Source of the DNA: Advenella kashmirensis W13003 | GTDB taxonomy: Bacteria > Pseudomonadota > Gammaproteobacteria > Burkholderiales > Burkholderiaceae_B | Direction: 5' to 3' | Assembly (NCBI RefSeq): GCF_000506985.1 | Contig: NZ_KI650979.1 | Location: forward strand, 1,302,710 to 1,366,709 | Length of the DNA: 64,000 bases | Shown: piece after piece, positions 4,575-60,159 of the stretch | Layout of the letters: each line of letters starts with the position of its first letter | Position numbering within the stretch: the first letter of the stretch is position 1 | Position numbers and translations under genes: made by a program | Notes under the pieces: model-generated | The model's database searches: none | Told to the model about the DNA's origin: nothing | The model's input: the letters and a program-made list of their open reading frames with translations, nothing else

Positions 4575-5765
4575 TCAGTTAGACGCGACGTTGGCTGCGT
4601 TCGGCTGCATCGGCACGGTTTTCGCATCAACCGGAAGGCCCGGCATGTACACTTTATCCACGCCGTCGACGATCACTTTGTCGCCAGGGGCGAGGCCGCT
4701 TTCGACAATGCGCAGGCCGTTGGCCTTGCGGCCAAGCTTGACGTCATGGCGCTGGGCCTTACCCTTCTCGTCAACAATCCACACGTACTTGCGATCCTGG
4801 TCGGTCAACACCGCCTTGTCGTTGATCAGCAGCGCATCGAACTGCGCGCTACCGAGCAGGCGCACGCGTGCAAACAGGCCTGGGGTGAACACCCCGTCTT
4901 TGTTGTCCAGTACGGCACGCATGCGAATGGTGCCGGTATTGCTGTCGATCTGGTTGTCAAGAAAGTCGACGGTACCGCGATGCGGGAATCCATCTTCGCC
5001 GGATAGGCCGACCTGCACGGGCAACTTGCCGTTCAGGTCGCTACCACGCCGACCATTGCGCGCCATTTCCGCATAGTGCAGGAACGCACTTTCATCGGCG
5101 TTGAAATACACATATACCTTTTCCTGCGAGACCAGCGTGGTCAGTACACTGCCTGCATCGTCGGCGTTGACCAGATTTCCGGCTGTGACTTCGGCCCTGC
5201 CTGCGAGACCCGAAATCGGTGCGCGCACTTGCGTCCACTCAACGTTCAGAAGCGCAGCATTCACGGCTGCCTCGGCCGCCTGCGCATCCGTTTGTGCGAC
5301 TGCGGCGGCAGTGCGTCGTTGTTCGTACATCTCGGTGGACACGGCCCGCTGAGCGACCAGCACCCGCGCTCGTTTGGCTTCGCTGGCGCTTTGGCCGGCA
5401 TGCGCGCGGGCGCGCGCCAGTTGGGCTTTGGCCTGTGCCAGGACAGTGCGGTAGCTGCTCGCATCAATGACGAACAGCACATCACCCCTGTGCACCTCGC
5501 TACCTTCGGTAAAGGCAACGCGCTCAATGTAGCCGGAGACGCGCGGGCGCAGTTTAACGGTTTCGACCGCATCAATACGGCCGTTGTAATCGTCCCACAG
5601 TCTGACGTCTTGCAGCGCTACTTGCGCGACGCTGACTGATGGAGGCGGCATGGACGCGGTTTTGGTCTGGTCACTGCAACCAGTCAGCATCATGACGGTC
5701 ATGGCACTGACAAGCCATGCGGCCAATATTGGTCGCTCGAAGTAAGACATAATGGAGGAGTACAT
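4575..5765 (-). CDS. RND efflux periplasmic adaptor, lipoprotein (MexE/AcrA family)
   Basis: A 396-residue membrane-fusion protein linking the RND pump to an outer-membrane channel. The N-terminus is a lipoprotein signal with lipobox LTGC (Cys30). The split biotinyl-lipoyl halves flank an alpha-helical hairpin rich in Ala/Gln/Arg, roughly residues 70-180, followed by beta-barrel and membrane-proximal domains, as in AcrA. It is first in the pump operon, with the permease 13 bases downstream, and is transcribed divergently from a LysR gene. Start is uncertain: ATG at 5765 or 5750; neither has a clear ribosome-binding site. Confidence 0.93.
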   Translation of the reverse strand: MYSSIMSYFERPILAAWLVSAMTVMMLTGCSDQTKTASMPPPSVSVAQVALQDVRLWDDYNGRIDAVETVKLRPRVSGYIERVAFTEGSEVHRGDVLFVIDASSYRTVLAQAKAQLARARAHAGQSASEAKRARVLVAQRAVSTEMYEQRRTAAAVAQTDAQAAEAAVNAALLNVEWTQVRAPISGLAGRAEVTAGNLVNADDAGSVLTTLVSQEKVYVYFNADESAFLHYAEMARNGRRGSDLNGKLPVQVGLSGEDGFPHRGTVDFLDNQIDSNTGTIRMRAVLDNKDGVFTPGLFARVRLLGSAQFDALLINDKAVLTDQDRKYVWIVDEKGKAQRHDVKLGRKANGLRIVESGLAPGDKVIVDGVDKVYMPGLPVDAKTVPMQPNAANVASN

Positions 5766-5893
5766 TGAAGGTGCTTCTGTTGAAAAAAAAGGAAAAAATC
5801 AAAACGGGGGTGCTGAATCACAACTGAAATTCAGTGTGTCGCCCGGCGCTGAGTGCGGAATTCGTTTCGGTCTGGCGAGGTCAAATGTCAATT

Positions 5894-5958
5894 GACTACA
5901 ATATAGTCTGAACAATGAAATAGATAAATAGTTGAAAATGAGATAGACTGTTGTCTAT
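5894..5958. promoter_or_regulatory. two palindromes in the divergent efflux-pump/LysR promoter region
   Basis: The intergenic region 5766-6054 is AT-rich and holds two perfect inverted repeats: GACTA-N5-TAGTC at 5894-5908 and ATAGAC-N4-GTCTAT at 5943-5958. They share a TAGAC/GTCTA-like half site and lie 35 bases apart, an arrangement typical of recognition and activation sites of a LysR regulator controlling a divergent operon. Binding by the adjacent regulator is inferred. Confidence 0.5.
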
Positions 5959-6054
5959 AAAGACAATAATTGCTGTGGATGTACTCAAGTCGTTCCAAAG
6001 GAACGGTTTCACCCCGGTCTGCTGGTTAATCCCTCAAGTTAAAAGCCACCTACT

Positions 6055-7005
6055 ATGTCTACGAACACATTAATAGATCTGCCAGAAATGAGATTATTCG
6101 CGGCGGTTGTAACCGATGGCTCCTTCACCGCGGCCGCGGATCGACTCGGCACGGATAAGGCGCGCGTCAGCCGTATCGTCCGACGTATGGAAGAAAAACT
6201 CGGCGCTCAGCTTCTTACCCGATCGACACGCCATCTCAGCGTCACCGAGGTTGGGCGTGATTACTTCGAACGCGCCATGTGCATCCTGACTGCTGCCGAG
6301 GCAGCCCAGGCTTCGGTAGCGCAACAGTCCAGAGAGCCAAAAGGACTGATCAAAATCACGGCGGGCGCTGAGTTCGGGACGCTGGTCGTGGACGAATGGA
6401 TCGCGGCGTTTTTGCGGCAGTCACCGAAGGTAACGGTCGAGGCGGAATACACGAGCCGCCAGGTTGACATCATTCATGAAGGGTTCGATGTCGCGATTCG
6501 TGTCGGTACGCTTGATGATTCAGGGCTTTCTGCGCGCAAGCTCGGCGAGATGGTGTTTGGGCTGTATGCAGCCCCTGATTATCTGAAGCGCGGTCCGGCG
6601 TTATCCACAGTCAGCGATCTGAAGCATCACGATCTGATCATGACGAGGACGCGTGGCCGCTCGAACTGGACTCTTGTCAATGGAGCACACACAGAGAGGG
6701 TTGCGGTGTCCCCACGCAGTGCAGTCAATAGTACGATCTCTGCCAGAAACCTGGCTCTTGCAGGACTTGGAATTGCGCAGTTGCCTCGTTTCATGGCTGA
6801 GCCATATGTGACCGATGGCACGTTGTCATGGGTACTTCCTGATTGGGCAGATGCCCCCGCTCCTGTTCATGCTGTATTCGCGTCAAGCCGGTATATGGAT
6901 CCCAAAGTGCGTAGTTTTGTAGATCTTATTTTGAGTACGTTTAAATGCGGTGACTGTCGTTCACGGGAAATGACGGACGACCGGCAGGAGCAGATTGCAG
7001 CTTAG
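6055..7005 (+). CDS. LysR-family transcriptional regulator, divergent from efflux pump
   Basis: A 316-residue LTTR. The N-terminal winged helix-turn-helix (about residues 8-67) reads FTAAADRLGTDKARVSRIVRRMEEKLGAQLL, here described by its key FTAAADRLG and RIVRRMEEKLG parts. The C-terminal effector-binding domain has the CrgA-type signature DVAIRVGTLDDSGLSARKLG. It faces the RND pump operon across a 289-base region with two palindromes, so it most likely controls the pump and itself. Effector unknown. Confidence 0.92.
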   Translation: MSTNTLIDLPEMRLFAAVVTDGSFTAAADRLGTDKARVSRIVRRMEEKLGAQLLTRSTRHLSVTEVGRDYFERAMCILTAAEAAQASVAQQSREPKGLIKITAGAEFGTLVVDEWIAAFLRQSPKVTVEAEYTSRQVDIIHEGFDVAIRVGTLDDSGLSARKLGEMVFGLYAAPDYLKRGPALSTVSDLKHHDLIMTRTRGRSNWTLVNGAHTERVAVSPRSAVNSTISARNLALAGLGIAQLPRFMAEPYVTDGTLSWVLPDWADAPAPVHAVFASSRYMDPKVRSFVDLILSTFKCGDCRSREMTDDRQEQIAA

Positions 7006-54533: not shown

Positions 54534-54555
54534 AAAAAAAGCGCTGGGGGCGCTT
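54534..54555 (-). terminator. rho-independent terminator ending the buf operon
   Basis: On the minus strand AAGCGC (54555-54550) and GCGCTT (54544-54539) form a 6-bp stem with a 5-base loop, followed by seven T (54540-54534). It lies 86 bases after the last buf-operon gene and 13 bases before glpK, so the glpK transcript must start within or past this hairpin, or read through it. Confidence 0.75.
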
Positions 54556-54640
54556 ATGAATGCCTAATGTTTATATTAAAGCATCCTGTGCAAAAATCGT
54601 GACCTGGAAGGAAAGTTGTCCCTGACTGGCAGGTGGTTCA

Positions 54641-55282
54641 TCACCAGCGCAGCAACCGAGGCCCCAGCAGCGCTCCGATCCCTGCCGGCACAAGCAGTCC
54701 GGCCACATACCACACGGCCCAGAACGCGACTTCCATTTCCGGGCAATGAAAGCTATAGACTATCGTTGCAAGGGCACTGGCCAGCAGTCCGGCAGCGGCG
54801 CCCGCCAGGCGCGGACGGGTCGGCGCCATCCCCTTCATCGCCCAGAATATGGCGACAAAACCCGGTACCGCCAGATACAGGATGTTGAAGAGACAGGTCC
54901 GCCAGGAAATACCCAATACCATATTCAGGCGATCTGACACAGGTGCCAATCCAAGGGTGACCAGTGCGGCGATCCATACGGCGACGATCGGGACAACAAT
55001 AATGATCCAGCGTTGCCCTGTCCGGATGCCCGGTCGCGCCAGGCGCCTGGCGATCAAAAATGCGCCGATTGCGATGATCAGGGGAAACGCCAGCTTGATC
55101 CAGAACAGGGGCGTACCCAGCATGGTCATGATGTCCGGCCTGACACCCAGAAAGGCCAGCATCAACAGCACGGCGCCAACTGCGGCGACCAGCAGTGCAA
55201 CGCCGTAGCGCCGGGTCGGCAGGCTGTGGTCAATCGGACCTGCATTACTGGCCAGCAATGCAGCCAAATCATTTGTTTTCAT
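54641..55282 (-). CDS. NrsF-family (DUF1109) anti-sigma factor, downstream copy
   Basis: A 213-residue protein with six membrane helices and a short cytoplasmic N-terminus ([20 protein letters not shown]). Helices begin near [20 protein letters not shown] and end at [19 protein letters not shown]. NrsF proteins hold SigF-type ECF factors at the membrane until released. ATG overlaps the sigma-factor stop by four bases. A second, different NrsF copy lies upstream of the sigma gene. A conserved cysteine lies in [11 protein letters not shown], matching NrsF cysteines. Confidence 0.88.
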
Positions 55283-55860
55283 AGTGTGCCTCTTATTTTG
55301 GCAGCCAATGCCTTGATTCCCCTGTGGATACCCACCTTGACCGCCGACTCCGACAAGCCGGTCAATTGGGCCGCTTCGGCCACGGACAGCCCCTGCAGCT
55401 TGACATACATGATCGGCAGGCGATGGCGGTCAGGCAGTTGGGCCAGCAGTTTGTCAACGTCCCGTCGCGCCTGGGCGGCTTCTTCGTCGGATTCGGCAAA
55501 CAATTCCTGTTGCTGGTCTTCCAGGGATTCGTTCCAGGCATCGTAGCGGTAGCGGCCGCGCAGATAGTCGGTCATCTTATAGCGTGCGATGGCATAGGTC
55601 CAGGCAGTCAGCGGCTGGTCCGGCTCATAGGTATGCCGGCCGTTATGCACGGCGATCAGGATTTCCTGGACGATATCTTCTATATCGCTGCAGGCATAGC
55701 TCAGTCGCTTGCGCAGGAACGCGCGCAGATTACCGCCCAGCGCCTGCAGAAACGACTGATAGGCCTGTGTGTCGCCCTCCAGCCCGGCCAGGAACAATCC
55801 CCTGAGCTGCCGTTCAGTGGCCCGGGCTTTGGCAATCGGGGTATTGTCGGATTCGCTCAT
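55279..55860 (-). CDS. ECF sigma factor, SigF type
   Basis: A 193-residue sigma factor. Region 2: [20 protein letters not shown] then [16 protein letters not shown] and [20 protein letters not shown]; region 4: [40 protein letters not shown] with the helix-turn-helix [14 protein letters not shown] 55860 has GAGG upstream; the longer frame reaching 56136 lies in the NrsF gene. It should drive the buf operon from a promoter like that at 59132-59157, creating positive autoregulation. Flanked by two anti-sigma genes. Confidence 0.92.
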
Positions 55861-55871
55861 CAGCCAGGACC

Positions 55872-56516
55872 TCACCACCGTAAATAGCCAGGGCCGAGCG
55901 CGGCGCCGATAGCCGTTGTCATGAAAATGGCCAGCACATGCAGAATACCCCAATAAGGCACCGGCATGGACGGACAATACAGTGCGTAAATGAGCACGCC
56001 TTGCGCGCCTGCCAGCAAGCCGGCGCCTGCGCCGGAAAGCGCCAGACGGGTGGGCGCCAGTCGTCTCATCGCCTGGATCATCGCGATCAGCGAGGGCAGC
56101 GAGAGCAGGATCGTATTGGCAATCGTCGTACCCCACATCGTACCACTGGGCACCAGATTCAGACGAAATTCGGCCGGGGTGGCCAGAATGAAACCGAGTG
56201 CCCCCAGCATCATGGCGGCGATGGGCAGCAGGGTGATCAACCAGGCGAATTTCACGGATGCTCCGGGCCTGGCCAGGCGTTGTACCAGTTGAAGTGCCGC
56301 GGCAATGACCACGAGCGGGAAGGCCAGCCGGATCCAGAACCGCGAGCTGAGCATTTGCTCAGGCATGCTACTGCTGACGCCAAAGACAACAACCAGCAGC
56401 ATGGTGCCGCCTGCCATTCCCAGCAGCAGTGCCCTGTTCAGCCGTTTGCTGATGGCGTCCCGCTCTATCGGCGCGAGTTCATGCGCCAGTCGGGACACCA
56501 GATCGTGAGTGCGCAT
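55872..56516 (-). CDS. NrsF-family (DUF1109) anti-sigma factor, upstream copy
   Basis: A 214-residue six-helix membrane protein, same length as and related to the downstream NrsF copy: N-terminus [14 protein letters not shown] compares with [13 protein letters not shown] of the other. Helices include [18 protein letters not shown] and [21 protein letters not shown] cysteine in [11 protein letters not shown] aligns with that in the other copy. ATG 56516 is preferred over 56522 on homology. It lies 14 bases after the DoxX-like gene and 11 bases before the sigma gene. Confidence 0.88.
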
Positions 56517-56529
56517 AGGCATGATGTGA

Positions 56530-57036
56530 TCAGGACCGTGGATACCGGTCTCCAAGCCAATAATCGAGGGATACGCGGCCGGGCCCCCAGGCGGCAATGC
56601 CCAGCGCCATGGCGATCCAGGTCAGGTGTACCGGCCATCCATCCGGCACGGTCAGCTGGATGATCAGCGTCATCAATACGATTCCCAACGCGGCAAATCG
56701 CGCGCCAATACCTGCGATCAGCAGTACTGGCAGCACCACTTCGCCGCAGCCGGACAGAAAGGCGAACAGTGCCGGCGCAGGAAACGGGTAAGGTCCACCG
56801 GGCAGGTGCAGCCGGAATTCATCCGTAAACAGATAAATAGCGGTGTCGTTAAGCATCAAAAAGCCCTGCCATTTCAACAGGCCGGATTTCAGGAAAGGAA
56901 CGGCCAGCGCTACGCGCAACAGTAATTGAACCAGCCACGGCCGGGCGATCCATTGCACACCCGCTCTGGCGCTTGCAGCCAGGCCGGCTATTTTCCACTG
57001 GCCGGAGATGGATGCCTGGTCTTGGTTTAGTATCAT
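56530..57036 (-). CDS. DoxX-family membrane protein of the bufferin operon
   Basis: A 168-residue integral membrane protein with four helices of DoxX type: LLLRVALAVPFLKSGLLKWQ, ALFAFLSGCGEVVLPVLLIA, LGIVLMTLIIQLTVPDG. In bufferin operons a DoxX protein (BufD) is often present and may shuttle electrons to a respiratory quinone. ATG 57036 has GGAG upstream and lies two bases after bufC; the TTG at 57042 is rejected. Confidence 0.85.
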   Translation of the reverse strand: MILNQDQASISGQWKIAGLAASARAGVQWIARPWLVQLLLRVALAVPFLKSGLLKWQGFLMLNDTAIYLFTDEFRLHLPGGPYPFPAPALFAFLSGCGEVVLPVLLIAGIGARFAALGIVLMTLIIQLTVPDGWPVHLTWIAMALGIAAWGPGRVSLDYWLGDRYPRS

Positions 57037-57038
57037 GG

Positions 57039-57803
57039 TCAACTCTCCATTTGAATCGTGGTGAACGCGCCCGCCGTGATCATGGCAGCCAGGCTGGCCG
57101 ACAGATCGAAATCGGGCGCGGTATCGAATGCGGTGGCGGCCGCGTCTCCCAGGGTCAGGCCGTCAAGCAGTGCGCAGAGAAAGGCCGCAGCAGCTGCGGA
57201 CAGGTTCGAGACGATCACATCCTCATCTGGGCGCGTGACGAGTGCGTTCTGGGCCTCGCTTGATGTCAGGGTGCTCACCGGGCCATCCTGTTTGTTCATG
57301 GCGAAGATGGCCACGGCAGGATAGGGCGACTGTACGAGGCGGGTAGCCGGATGCGCGTGCAGGCGTAGCCCGTTCAATGCCGGCTCCGGCACCCGGACCA
57401 GATCCTGGGCCTGCAGAACGGGTGCGTCGGCCGCATGATAGGCATCCAGCCAGGCGCGTTCGATACGTGCCGTGTCGGCAAGCCAGGGCAGGTTCTGTGC
57501 ATAGAGGTAAGACTCGATAAAAGCCGGAAAATCACGTCCGTAATCGAATAGCAGTGGCGACGAGGGTGGGCAGGCCCGTACATGAAACCGTGCCATGGCC
57601 CGGAAAAATTCAACACCCGTGATGCGCTGCACGGCAGGATAAATCGCTGCCAGCGCATCGATCAGGCTGACCGTGACATTATTGCGGTAAACGTTGTAGC
57701 GTGTTTGTGGGTTCTGTCCAGGATGAGCTACGACGTCAGTCGGCAAGGCGCGGTTCGGGTTGAGCAGACCGGCGCAGAATGTCGGTGCGTACTCATCATT
57801 CAT
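57039..57803 (-). CDS. bufC: bufferin maturation partner protein, DUF2063
   Basis: A 254-residue DUF2063/HvfC-type protein with a recognition-domain-like N-terminus and no membrane helix: FCAGLLNPNRALPTDVVAHP, RYNVYRNNVTVSLIDALAA and YPAVQRITGVEFFRAMAR are its family marks. It is the partner that brings the precursor to the BufB iron enzyme. ATG overlaps bufB by 8 bases and its stop lies 2 bases before the DoxX gene, so the genes are translated as a unit. Confidence 0.88.
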   Translation of the reverse strand: MNDEYAPTFCAGLLNPNRALPTDVVAHPGQNPQTRYNVYRNNVTVSLIDALAAIYPAVQRITGVEFFRAMARFHVRACPPSSPLLFDYGRDFPAFIESYLYAQNLPWLADTARIERAWLDAYHAADAPVLQAQDLVRVPEPALNGLRLHAHPATRLVQSPYPAVAIFAMNKQDGPVSTLTSSEAQNALVTRPDEDVIVSNLSAAAAAFLCALLDGLTLGDAAATAFDTAPDFDLSASLAAMITAGAFTTIQMES

Positions 57804-58740
57804 GGCAGACCTCGGCCAGTACGTTTTGTCCCTGCCGGCTCACGGCCGCATTCAGGTATTGTCTTGCACGTAACGCCTGTGCTTTCAGAATCGGCCAGGC
57901 GGGCACATTGCTGTCCCATTCGATCAGCGTGGGGAAGGGACCGGCCCGGTCAATCACGTTTTCGTAGAGTCGCCATACGGCAGCGGCCACTGCCCGGTCA
58001 TGGCTGTCGATGAGCAGTCGCTGCGTCGTGTCAGCATTCTCTTCGCTGTGCCCGGCCAGATGAATTTCGCCTACCCGGTTCAATGGAAAACCTGCGAGAT
58101 AGGCTTCTGCACTGAGCCCATGATTGATTGCACTGACGTAGACATTGTTGATATCCAGCAGCAGACCACAGCCTGTGCGGCGTGCGATTTCATGCAGAAA
58201 GTCCGTTTCCTGCATGTCAGATGACGCAAACTGAATATAGGTCGACGGATTCTCCAGCAATAAGGGACGCGAGATCGCCATCTGTACCTGGTCGATATGA
58301 TCGCACACGGTTTGCAAGGTGGTCCGGGTATAGGGCAGGGGCAATAGATCGTTGTAAAACGTATTGTTGTGCGAAGACCAGGCCAGGTGCTCCGACACCA
58401 GGACCGGTTCATAGCGTTTGACGAGCTGCGCGAAGCGTTCAAGGTGTACGGTGTTCAACGGTTCCGGGCCGCCGATCGACATGCAGACACCATGAATGGA
58501 CAGTGGATACTGCTCTCGAATCGCCGTCAGGGTCCGATGTGGCGGACCGCCTGCGCCCATATAGTTTTCTGCATGTACTTCGAAGAATGCATCAGTCCAG
58601 CTGTCTGCCAGGATGGTTGCCAGGTGTTCATGCTTGAAGCTGGTTCCCGTCAGCCGTTGCCGGCGCGGATTCACATCGGATCCCGCGCAAAAGGGGCGGC
58701 CGTTCACGTCGCCGGATGTGAGTATGGTGCTGTCGTACAC
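57796..58740 (-). CDS. bufB: multinuclear non-heme iron oxidase (MNIO, DUF692) for bufferin modification
   Basis: A 314-residue TIM-barrel enzyme of the DUF692/MNIO family. Likely metal ligands: FEVHAENY (Glu54, His56, Glu58), LSIHGVCMSIGG (His83), SEHLAW (Glu117, His118), ENPSTY (Glu163), LLLDINNVYV (Asp196), EIHLAGH (His227, His231), DSHDRA (Asp246, His248) and IEWDSN (Glu274). MNIOs oxidise precursor cysteines, in bufferins to thiooxazole. Start is GTG 58740, preceded by AGGAAA, 26 bases after bufA; the longer frame to 58947 overlaps bufA. Confidence 0.9.
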   Translation of the reverse strand: MYDSTILTSGDVNGRPFCAGSDVNPRRQRLTGTSFKHEHLATILADSWTDAFFEVHAENYMGAGGPPHRTLTAIREQYPLSIHGVCMSIGGPEPLNTVHLERFAQLVKRYEPVLVSEHLAWSSHNNTFYNDLLPLPYTRTTLQTVCDHIDQVQMAISRPLLLENPSTYIQFASSDMQETDFLHEIARRTGCGLLLDINNVYVSAINHGLSAEAYLAGFPLNRVGEIHLAGHSEENADTTQRLLIDSHDRAVAAAVWRLYENVIDRAGPFPTLIEWDSNVPAWPILKAQALRARQYLNAAVSRQGQNVLAEVCHE

Positions 58741-58766
58741 GGCCGTTTCCTGTCTGATTACACCGA

Positions 58767-59078
58767 TCAGGCTTTGACAGGGGTCAATGAGCCATGACCG
58801 CCGCCGGGTACCTGAATGTTTTCGCATGTGCCTGCCTGGACAAACTTCCATGCATTGCCCTGGAAGTCCTTGGTGGAGGTGCCCTGGCAGGTCGTGCCGG
58901 GACCGGCTGCGCAGTCGTTCTGTCCCTTGAGCGCAACGCCGTAGCATTTGACCTTTTTGGCAGAGACGGCGGCGTCGGCTTCTGCCTTTGTCAAAGGGCC
59001 GGCATGGGCGACCGACGCCATCACGCCGGCGATGGCACTCGCGAGCAGAGCGGAACTGACCATTGATTTAGCTGACAT
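58767..59078 (-). CDS. bufA: bufferin precursor peptide, DUF2282 family
   Basis: A 103-residue protein with a Sec signal peptide ending AHA-GP (about residue 26), unusual for a RiPP precursor but normal for bufferins. The mature part holds four cysteines: Cys45 (KVKCYGVA), Cys56 (NDCAAG), Cys64 (TTCQGT) and Cys85 (AGTCEN), in the DUF2282 arrangement [18 protein letters not shown]. Some would be modified to copper-binding thiooxazoles. GGAG precedes the ATG. It is first in a seven-gene operon with maturation enzymes and a sigma/anti-sigma set. Confidence 0.92.
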
Positions 59079-59131
59079 ACATTTCTCCAGTAATTGACAA
59101 TCGATGCATCCGGAATGGATACATAAGAGAG

Positions 59132-59157
59132 TTCGCCCGGAATCAGAAATGGGTTAC
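59132..59157 (-). promoter_or_regulatory. SigF-like promoter of the buf operon, GTAACC-N16-CGAA
   Basis: On the minus strand GTAACC (59157-59152), a 16-base spacer, then CGAA (59135-59132). This equals the SigF promoter consensus of Caulobacter as I remember it. The -10 lies 54 bases before the bufA ATG. It links the operon's own sigma factor to the precursor gene. Confidence 0.7.
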
Positions 59158-59247
59158 AGCCTGGGTGGATTTTTTATGAAAATTAATGAGAACCGCAATA
59201 ACGATGCAGGTTTCCAGAATAATTATGTTTGCAATAAAATAAGTAGC

Positions 59248-60159
59248 TTATCCGTCAGCCCGGGCCAGTTCACGCATTGCCAAAATATCGCGTTTGGGCG
59301 GCGCGCCAAACAGACGGCTGTATTCCCGACTGAACTGCGATGGGCTCTCATAGCCCACCCTGAAGGCGGCAGTGGCCGCATCCAGGTGCTCGTTGAGCAT
59401 CAGGTGTTTCGCCTCGTTCAGGCGCAGCCATTTCTGATATTGCAGCGGACTCATGGCCGTCAGTTGCCGAAAATGATGGTGAAAGGTCGGCGTGCTCATC
59501 TGTACACTGGATGCCAGCTCTTCCACCCGCAGCGGCGTGGCAAAGTTTTGTTTGAGCCAGTCGATCGTGCGCGCAATACGGTAACTGTGGCCGTCGACCG
59601 AGGCGATCTGGCGCAGCCTGGCGGCCTGATCGCTCTTCAATAAACGGTAATGGATTTCGCGTTCAAAAAGCGGCGCCAGGGTGTCAATCGCTTCGGGCTC
59701 ATTTAGCAGGTTCACCAGCCGCCTGAACGGGTCCAGTATGTCAGATGTGATGTTACCCAGGCCGATGCTGCCCGCAGACGGTCGCTCGCGTGGGATAGGC
59801 ACGTCGCCGTGGGCAATCAGTTCCGCCAGCGTGCGCAAATTCAGACTCAGGGTCAGCCCCAGGCAGGGCGTTTGGGGGCTGGCGGTCATGACCTGGGACG
59901 TTGCGGGCAGATCGACAGAGGTAATCAGAAAGCGCGACACATCGTAGGGATAGGCTTGTTCTCCGACCCACATTCTTTTGGCGCCCTGAACCACCAGGAC
60001 GATGCTGGGGTTGACAATGCAGTAGCGTGGCGGAGTTGGCGCTTCACGGCGGAAAAAATTCAGGCCGGCAATAGGAGTCGGGCAATCTTCTGTGCCTGCG
60101 CTCCATTTATCAATCATGCGTGCCAGCGATTCGCGTAGGGGATGGCTGCCGTTTTCCAT
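59248..60159 (-). CDS. AraC-family regulator (YqhC-like)
   Basis: A 303-residue regulator. N-terminal AraC_N domain (PRYCIVNPSIVLVVQGAKRM, YDVSRFLITSVDLPATSQVM) and C-terminal double helix-turn-helix (LRVEELASSVQMSTPTFHHH, AAFRVGYESPSQFSREYSRL). YqhC activates an aldehyde/alcohol dehydrogenase gene in E. coli; here the divergent gene at 60389 is a zinc alcohol dehydrogenase, so the same arrangement is inferred. Its 3' end lies 90 bases before the buf promoter. Confidence 0.92.
   Translation of the reverse strand: MENGSHPLRESLARMIDKWSAGTEDCPTPIAGLNFFRREAPTPPRYCIVNPSIVLVVQGAKRMWVGEQAYPYDVSRFLITSVDLPATSQVMTASPQTPCLGLTLSLNLRTLAELIAHGDVPIPRERPSAGSIGLGNITSDILDPFRRLVNLLNEPEAIDTLAPLFEREIHYRLLKSDQAARLRQIASVDGHSYRIARTIDWLKQNFATPLRVEELASSVQMSTPTFHHHFRQLTAMSPLQYQKWLRLNEAKHLMLNEHLDAATAAFRVGYESPSQFSREYSRLFGAPPKRDILAMRELARADG

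Follow-up and report, generated by a model that had tools for sequence, protein, structure and literature searches.

A Buf1-type bufferin operon of Advenella kashmirensis with a SigF-type sigma factor gene between two NrsF paralogs and a probable self-regulatory circuit

We analysed a seven-gene operon on the minus strand (54641-59078) of a 64,000-nucleotide stretch of Advenella kashmirensis W13003 DNA, referred to here as the window. Read from the sequence and its open reading frames (ORFs), the tightly coupled genes are transcribed in the order bufA, bufB, bufC, doxX, nrsFa, sigF and nrsFb. We propose that these genes make up a complete Buf1-type bufferin (captophorin) operon under the control of its own SigF-type (ECF16-like) extracytoplasmic function (ECF) sigma factor, and that NrsFa, an NrsF paralog in which the first conserved cysteine has been lost, acts as a modified feedback regulator of the system; to this explanation as a whole we assign a probability of about 0.8. 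In the published examples, sigF-nrsF forms a separate unit with one anti-sigma gene, whereas in the window sigF lies inside the output operon and is flanked by two NrsF paralogs. The bufferin operon itself is one further member of a large known class. The paired NrsF genes offer a natural test of the two NrsF cysteines, since a paralog linked to the output operon has one of them changed and the other mostly kept.

The operon encodes a Buf1-type bufferin gene set

An earlier note on this DNA had described seven coupled genes with short spacings or overlaps, and this is borne out: bufA and bufB are 26 nt apart, bufB and bufC overlap by 8 nt, bufC and doxX are separated by 2 nt, doxX and nrsFa by 13 nt and nrsFa and sigF by 11 nt, and sigF overlaps nrsFb by 4 nt. 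All seven proteins scored above the curated Pfam cut-offs of their families in profile searches, and DUF2282, DUF692, DUF2063, DoxX, NrsF (PF06532) and the sigma-70 regions were all recovered. E-values were 1.5e-22 for DUF2282, 4.2e-105 for MNIO, 1.9e-24 for DUF2063 and 4.9e-16 for DoxX, and the two PF06532 matches had E-values of 6.8e-51 (NrsFa) and 2e-72 (NrsFb). Searched with these families, the whole genome gave a single MNIO gene, a single DUF2282 gene and two NrsF genes, each of them within the operon.

The precursor had been described as a DUF2282 protein with four cysteines, and these residues (C45, C56, C64 and C85) are shared without exception by the 18 sequences aligned, the window's own among them (18/18). 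By eye, the BufA N terminus resembles a signal peptide, with a basic start, a hydrophobic stretch and an AHA-like end. The NCBIfam BufA2 model gave 29.3 bits where 60 are required, and for this reason we do not file the protein as BufA2; a structure search returned a single unconvincing match (E 0.14). Residue 43 of BufA (58950-58952), two residues before the first conserved cysteine, is Val in the window and Glu in the other 17 of 17 aligned sequences. BufB scored 378.2 bits against the NCBIfam model NF050167 (MNIO_BufB; cut-off 310), which places it with the bufferin-maturase-type MNIOs, and its structure search matched MNIO structures including 3BWW and MbnB. BufC matched DUF2063 itself but reached only 34 of the 142 bits required by NCBIfam HvfC, and no solved relative was found for it at E 0.1 in the structure search. 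The NCBIfam HvfX equivalog was matched in the operon below its cut-off only.

A survey of MNIO enzymes lists DUF2282, DUF2063, DoxX, sigma-70 and NrsF proteins in bufferin clusters and describes Buf1 as having modified central cysteines and a disulphide between the outer two, and it reports copper chelation by bufferins (PMC12452194). PMC12668002 discusses the 5-thiooxazole products. The gene set of the window corresponds to the published Buf1-type core plus regulators, which supports the bufferin reading of the earlier note, and we regard the identity of the operon as a bufferin operon as very likely. On our reading, BufB and BufC would oxidise the two central BufA cysteines to thiooxazoles, and the peptide would be exported by Sec and bind excess copper in the periplasm. 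The note had also pointed to DoxX and the regulatory genes in one operon with the bufferin genes; they are present, but are not special to the window, as bufferin clusters with DoxX, SigF and NrsF have already been published for Caulobacter (CC3252-CC3257), Cupriavidus (gigPABT/rpoQ-rsqA) and Sinorhizobium.

Among the closest known systems is Caulobacter CC3252-CC3257, with the same DUF2282-DUF692-DUF2063-DoxX order, a SigF-dependent promoter, and an ECF factor with NrsF; CC3254-CC3257 are SigF-dependent (PMC3511200). There, however, sigF and the sole nrsF gene (CC3253-CC3252) stand apart under a promoter of their own, whereas in the window the genes stand in line and NrsF is doubled. Cupriavidus metallidurans has four corresponding output genes and a neighbouring ECF/anti-sigma pair, but its copper- and gold-induced gigPABT genes form a divergon with rpoQ-rsqA (PMC10304878), which has one anti-sigma gene, and the published work did not demonstrate control by RpoQ. 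In Sinorhizobium meliloti (SMb20530-20527 / rpoE7-ecfR7, ECF16) DUF692 and DUF2063 genes accompany an ECF16 factor and TGTAAC-N17-CGAA promoters; that locus differs in being divergent and having one anti-sigma gene.

A conserved SigF-type promoter precedes bufA

Pfam sigma-70 regions 2 and 4 were both matched by SigF, which also scored 286.6 bits against NF009188 (cut-off 250). An NrsF (PF06532) protein is encoded next to this ECF factor; we infer the ECF16 group name. The earlier note had predicted a SigF-like promoter, and we located a TGTAACC-N16-CGAA site upstream of bufA which takes the TGTAAC-N17-CGAA form printed for the ECF16 factor RpoE7 of Sinorhizobium (PMC6180224). It is the sole exact match in the 4.85-Mb genome, while the reversed pattern, our control, had 4 matches. 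Motif enrichment was consequently rejected as proof of a promoter, and since the genome count alone is not above chance, the weight of the assignment rests on conservation across family loci. The motif stands upstream of bufA in 12 of the 13 loci of the window's family that carry bufA (the window, G071, G095, G134, G047, G068, G139, G584, G586, G592, G103 and G120; G numbers are our handles for genomes). A looser form of the motif had 4 genome matches against 8 for its control, and we claim no second SigF target from it: of the three additional sites, L149 is internal to an ORF, L150 falls in an ORF of the opposite strand, and no ORF of at least 110 aa overlaps or closely follows L151.

No further SigF motif was found by consensus scan before nrsFa or sigF in any of the 8 loci with the in-line order buf-nrsFa-sigF-nrsFb (8/8, window included), which makes it probable that the whole operon is transcribed from a single SigF promoter. 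At the operon's end, a hairpin with a run of T after it was found (54555-54539), where the note had placed a terminator at 54534-54555; the structure is there, but a single site of this kind is weak evidence, since the scan gave 16 terminator-like sites over the two strands where shuffled sequences gave 3.6 on average.

We consider it likely that the operon is autoregulated from this one promoter. According to our proposal, NrsFb would be the main brake: it would keep SigF at the inner membrane, and metal or thiol stress acting on the two NrsFb cysteines would release it. From the bufA promoter, SigF would then drive transcription of all seven genes, its own and the two nrsF genes among them, so that the positive feedback would carry two brakes of its own. 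In Caulobacter, NrsF (CC3252) restrains SigF, replacement of Cys131/Cys181 weakens this restraint, and single cysteine changes raise basal expression with induction retained (PMC3511200). We weighed the alternative that sigF and nrsFb are expressed mainly from a separate internal promoter, so that the operon is not strongly autoregulated. Basal SigF needs some source, rpoQ-rsqA of C. metallidurans is RpoD-dependent (PMC10304878), and Caulobacter sigF is reported not to be strongly autoregulated under metal stress (PMC3511200). Inside the operon, however, consensus scans of the operon strand found neither a SigF motif nor a sigma-70-like site, internal promoters having been sought by consensus only. 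RpoE7 moreover appears to be autoregulated (PMC6180224), EcfF of Bradyrhizobium is reported to be (PMC3420878), and in one medium Caulobacter sigF rose about 20-fold with copper (PMC8224329). An internal promoter of this weight seems to us improbable, at something like one chance in four.

NrsFa lacks the first conserved cysteine of NrsF anti-sigma factors

The earlier note had mentioned NrsF anti-sigma factors; two are indeed encoded, but it was silent on the difference between them, namely that one is without a conserved cysteine. NrsFb has both (C130 and C180), which we pair with Caulobacter C131 and C181 by position, not by alignment. In NrsFa (counting the Met at 56516 as residue 1; an alternative start lies at 56522) the first conserved position is occupied by Thr (residue 131) and the second cysteine is kept (Cys181), so that the two-cysteine signature of Caulobacter NrsF is incomplete. 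The NCBIfam NrsF equivalog cut-off of 300 bits was missed by both proteins (NrsFa 82.4 bits, NrsFb 155.5 bits). NrsFa is best described as a member of the Pfam NrsF family and should not carry the standard label of an NrsF anti-sigma factor.

The two paralogs are 38% identical over their full length. In a tree of 50 NrsF sequences NrsFa forms one clade (support 100/99), which has members in two further families (G323 and G266), and all 11 NrsFb rows fall outside it, although the fork joining the NrsFb rows and one single NrsF is weak (83/23). A recent duplication of NrsFa within the genus was rejected on account of this identity and of the copies from two other families of the order. We compared 55 NrsF sequences at the cysteine positions, leaving out rows of at most 170 bits and duplicate named copies (L104-L109). 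The first cysteine is absent from all 9 intact family NrsFa (6 Thr, 2 Gly, 1 Ala) and present in all others, that is, in 43 of 43 NrsFb or single NrsF, both early-branching paralogs (2/2) and the one distant row (1/1). The second cysteine occurs in 7 of 9 NrsFa, 2 of 2 early-branching paralogs, 42 of 43 NrsFb or single NrsF and 0 of 1 distant row. Two low-scoring rows outside this count have Thr (the G134 piece) and Cys (L103) at the first position. When the tree was built without that column, loss of the first cysteine mapped to one event (100/100).

Apart from this residue, NrsFa has retained much of the family. All 9 of the intact copies retain the MxTxDL motif at the N terminus, and other positions conserved in NrsF are mostly preserved. 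Between the window and G071 the ratio of nonsynonymous to synonymous substitution rates (dN/dS) is about 0.15 for NrsFa and about 0.18 for NrsFb, rough values as dS exceeds 1, and there are thus signs of purifying selection on NrsFa. Its predicted model is confident (predicted local distance difference test 91.5, predicted template modelling score 0.87) and helical, with six long and three short helices; no solved structure matched it at E ≤0.001, the best match having E 0.41.

Operon layout among relatives and the role of NrsFa

We fetched 46 stretches around NrsF genes, a subset of all NrsF matches, and labelled their genes by profile search. Seven have buf-doxX-nrsFa-sigF-nrsFb in line as in the window (G134, with its nrsFa interrupted, among them), one (G103) has buf-doxX-sigF-nrsF in line with no nrsFa found beside these genes, and two (G586 and G592) have buf-doxX-nrsFa without an adjacent sigF. 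Ten have sigF-nrsF and the buf genes in divergent orientation, with the profiles used giving an incomplete set in two of them, L095 and L102, and 26 contain no bufABC genes. Outside the window's family all 8 of 8 buf loci are divergent, and the in-line layout, by named matches, is found in Advenella, Achromobacter aloeverae and Bordetella ansorpii. An NrsFa-like protein (at least 52% identity) occurs in 10 of 268 family genomes, interrupted in one (G134), with a 74-residue piece in an eleventh (G120); in the genus, 4 of 10 genomes have an NrsF above cut-off. Adjacent NrsF pairs were found in 3 of 399 genomes sampled from the order, 2 of 398 from the phylum and 1 of 369 from the class, the window's genome being counted in each, with the top 7 or 8 candidates per genome scored and with draft contigs able to hide pairs. 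These counts led us to reject paired NrsF genes as a common arrangement.

One further tandem of NrsF genes was noted at L084 (G266; 5004-6967), where sigF is followed by two NrsF genes that both keep both cysteines; no bufferin genes were found in this 13-kb stretch.

NrsFa, to judge from its gene neighbourhood, belongs to the SigF-type output operon even where sigF is elsewhere, as in G586, with sigF-nrsFb 2.9 Mb along the contig, and G592, a 77% complete genome in which no sigF was found on the 7.9-kb contig that carries buf-doxX-nrsFa. For the function of the protein we turned to the Bradyrhizobium EcfF-OsrA pair, likewise a group-16 ECF factor and a DUF1109 (NrsF) anti-sigma factor with two conserved cysteines. 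In OsrA, C129 is needed for sigma interaction (two-hybrid) and C179 for the stress response (PMC3420878); the pair differs from ours in being reported for the H2O2 response and in that OsrA has both cysteines, whereas NrsFa is without the first. On this positional match, the residue associated with sigma interaction would be gone from NrsFa and the one associated with sensing largely preserved. The most likely interpretation is that NrsFa is a feedback regulator with altered gating, either an anti-sigma factor of weak effect or shifted signal or a protein that partners NrsFb, and that it would be made mainly when SigF is active and would tune the response. Some regulatory role of NrsFa on SigF, taken by itself, we put at a little below even odds. 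Its specific form, a pseudo-anti-sigma factor under SigF control whose mixed complexes with NrsFb, or whose action as a weak second brake, set threshold, gain or shut-off, is offered more tentatively.

A serious rival, though in our estimate somewhat unlikely, is that NrsFa does not act on SigF at all and instead assists the bufferin pathway in the membrane, together with DoxX or BufA. The lost cysteine, whose likely OsrA equivalent is needed for sigma interaction (PMC3420878), speaks for this, as do G586 and G592, where nrsFa follows buf-doxX with no sigF adjacent. On the other hand, the MxTxDL segment, the identity to NrsFb and most conserved NrsF positions have been retained, and nrsFa directly adjoins sigF in 8 family genomes, the window's included. 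We think it unlikely, and less probable than an accessory role, that NrsFa is a redundant, functionless duplicate that is being lost. Some lineages probably do show decay: in G134, of the same genus, nrsFa is split over two overlapping open pieces (L066, about 6269-7002) while the other six operon genes are open, and in G120 only the 74-residue piece follows doxX (L070, 2280-2501). The absence of nrsFa beside the G103 genes would fit the same view, as would two Bordetella ansorpii copies (L068 and L146; G068 and G584) that lack both cysteines, unlike other family copies, in a full-length frame beside sigF. Redundancy is opposed by a dN/dS that is low and similar to that of NrsFb, rough as it is, by the confident model and by intact frames in 9 of the 10 family genomes that have a near-full copy.

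In G120, sigF-nrsFb is divergent from the buf genes, and the arrangement looks as if in-line and divergent layouts had been swapped.

Several observations weigh against the explanation favoured here, a self-driven bufferin operon with NrsFa as modified feedback regulator. NrsFa may not bind SigF, because the cysteine linked to sigma interaction is lost, and the equivalence of the cysteines (129/179 in OsrA, 131/181 in Caulobacter, 130/180 in NrsFb) was drawn by position and order, not by alignment. The G134 and G120 cases indicate that nrsFa is dispensable in places. In G135 the pattern used found no motif before bufA, the single site there being assigned to sigF. Among the published systems, work on C. 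metallidurans obtained no evidence for transcription of gig by RpoQ, and deletion of rpoQ raised gig expression; the share of Gig in copper resistance is small (PMC10304878) or absent (earlier work cited in PMC8224329); and no response to H2O2, Cd or chromate was seen with RpoE7 fusions of Sinorhizobium (PMC6180224).

In the literature searched we found no description of a dual-anti-sigma feedback circuit for this sigma group, and no report of paired NrsF genes in the open-licence full texts covered, so that prior notice is possible. Two natural paralogs in one cell would make anti-sigma metal sensing and sigma release testable and, if our proposal is true, would reveal the means by which a peptide system for copper buffering keeps its expression in check.

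The inducing signal

The copper response of the operon is proposed from the known systems: in Caulobacter the SigF regulon is copper-induced and a sigF mutant is copper-sensitive (PMC8224329). We also considered that the operon may chiefly serve against a different metal or a thiol/oxidant stress, with gold, silver, chromate and cadmium as candidates in place of copper. The gig cluster is induced by gold and silver as well as copper (PMC8224329), Caulobacter SigF genes are induced by chromate and cadmium (PMC3511200), and Gig adds little copper resistance in C. metallidurans (PMC10304878). However, the Caulobacter sigF mutant that is sensitive to copper is not sensitive to chromate or cadmium (PMC3511200, PMC8224329), and bufferins are reported copper chelators (PMC12452194), which makes this the least probable of the alternatives in our view.

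Feature coordinates and neighbouring genes

The features of the operon are collected in Table 1.

Table 1. Features of the bufferin operon in the window.
Feature	Position	Strand	Basis
SigF/ECF16-type promoter TGTAACC-N16-CGAA (putative), upstream of bufA	59132..59158	-	motif scan and family loci
bufA, DUF2282 precursor, 103 aa	58767..59078	-	PF10048 79.8 bits (cut-off 22.4)
bufB, MNIO (DUF692), 314 aa, GTG start	57796..58740	-	PF05114 351.2 bits; NF050167
bufC, DUF2063 partner, 254 aa	57039..57803	-	PF09836 86.1 bits
doxX-family membrane protein (GigT-like), 168 aa	56530..57036	-	PF07681 59.6 bits
nrsFa, NrsF paralog without first conserved Cys, ~214 aa	55872..56516	-	PF06532 173.4 bits
sigF, ECF sigma factor, 193 aa	55279..55860	-	PF08281 and PF04542 over cut-off; NF009188
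nrsFb, canonical NrsF anti-sigma factor, 213 aa, Cys130 and Cys180	54641..55282	-	PF06532 243.8 bits
Terminator-like hairpin and T tract, just before the FGGY-kinase gene	54539..54555	-	terminator scan

The operon is flanked downstream by a gene for an FGGY kinase (glycerol-kinase-like) and upstream by one for an AraC-type regulator. The latter (AraC_N and helix-turn-helix domains; 59248-60159) is on the same strand, and its 3' end lies about 90 bases upstream of the bufferin promoter.

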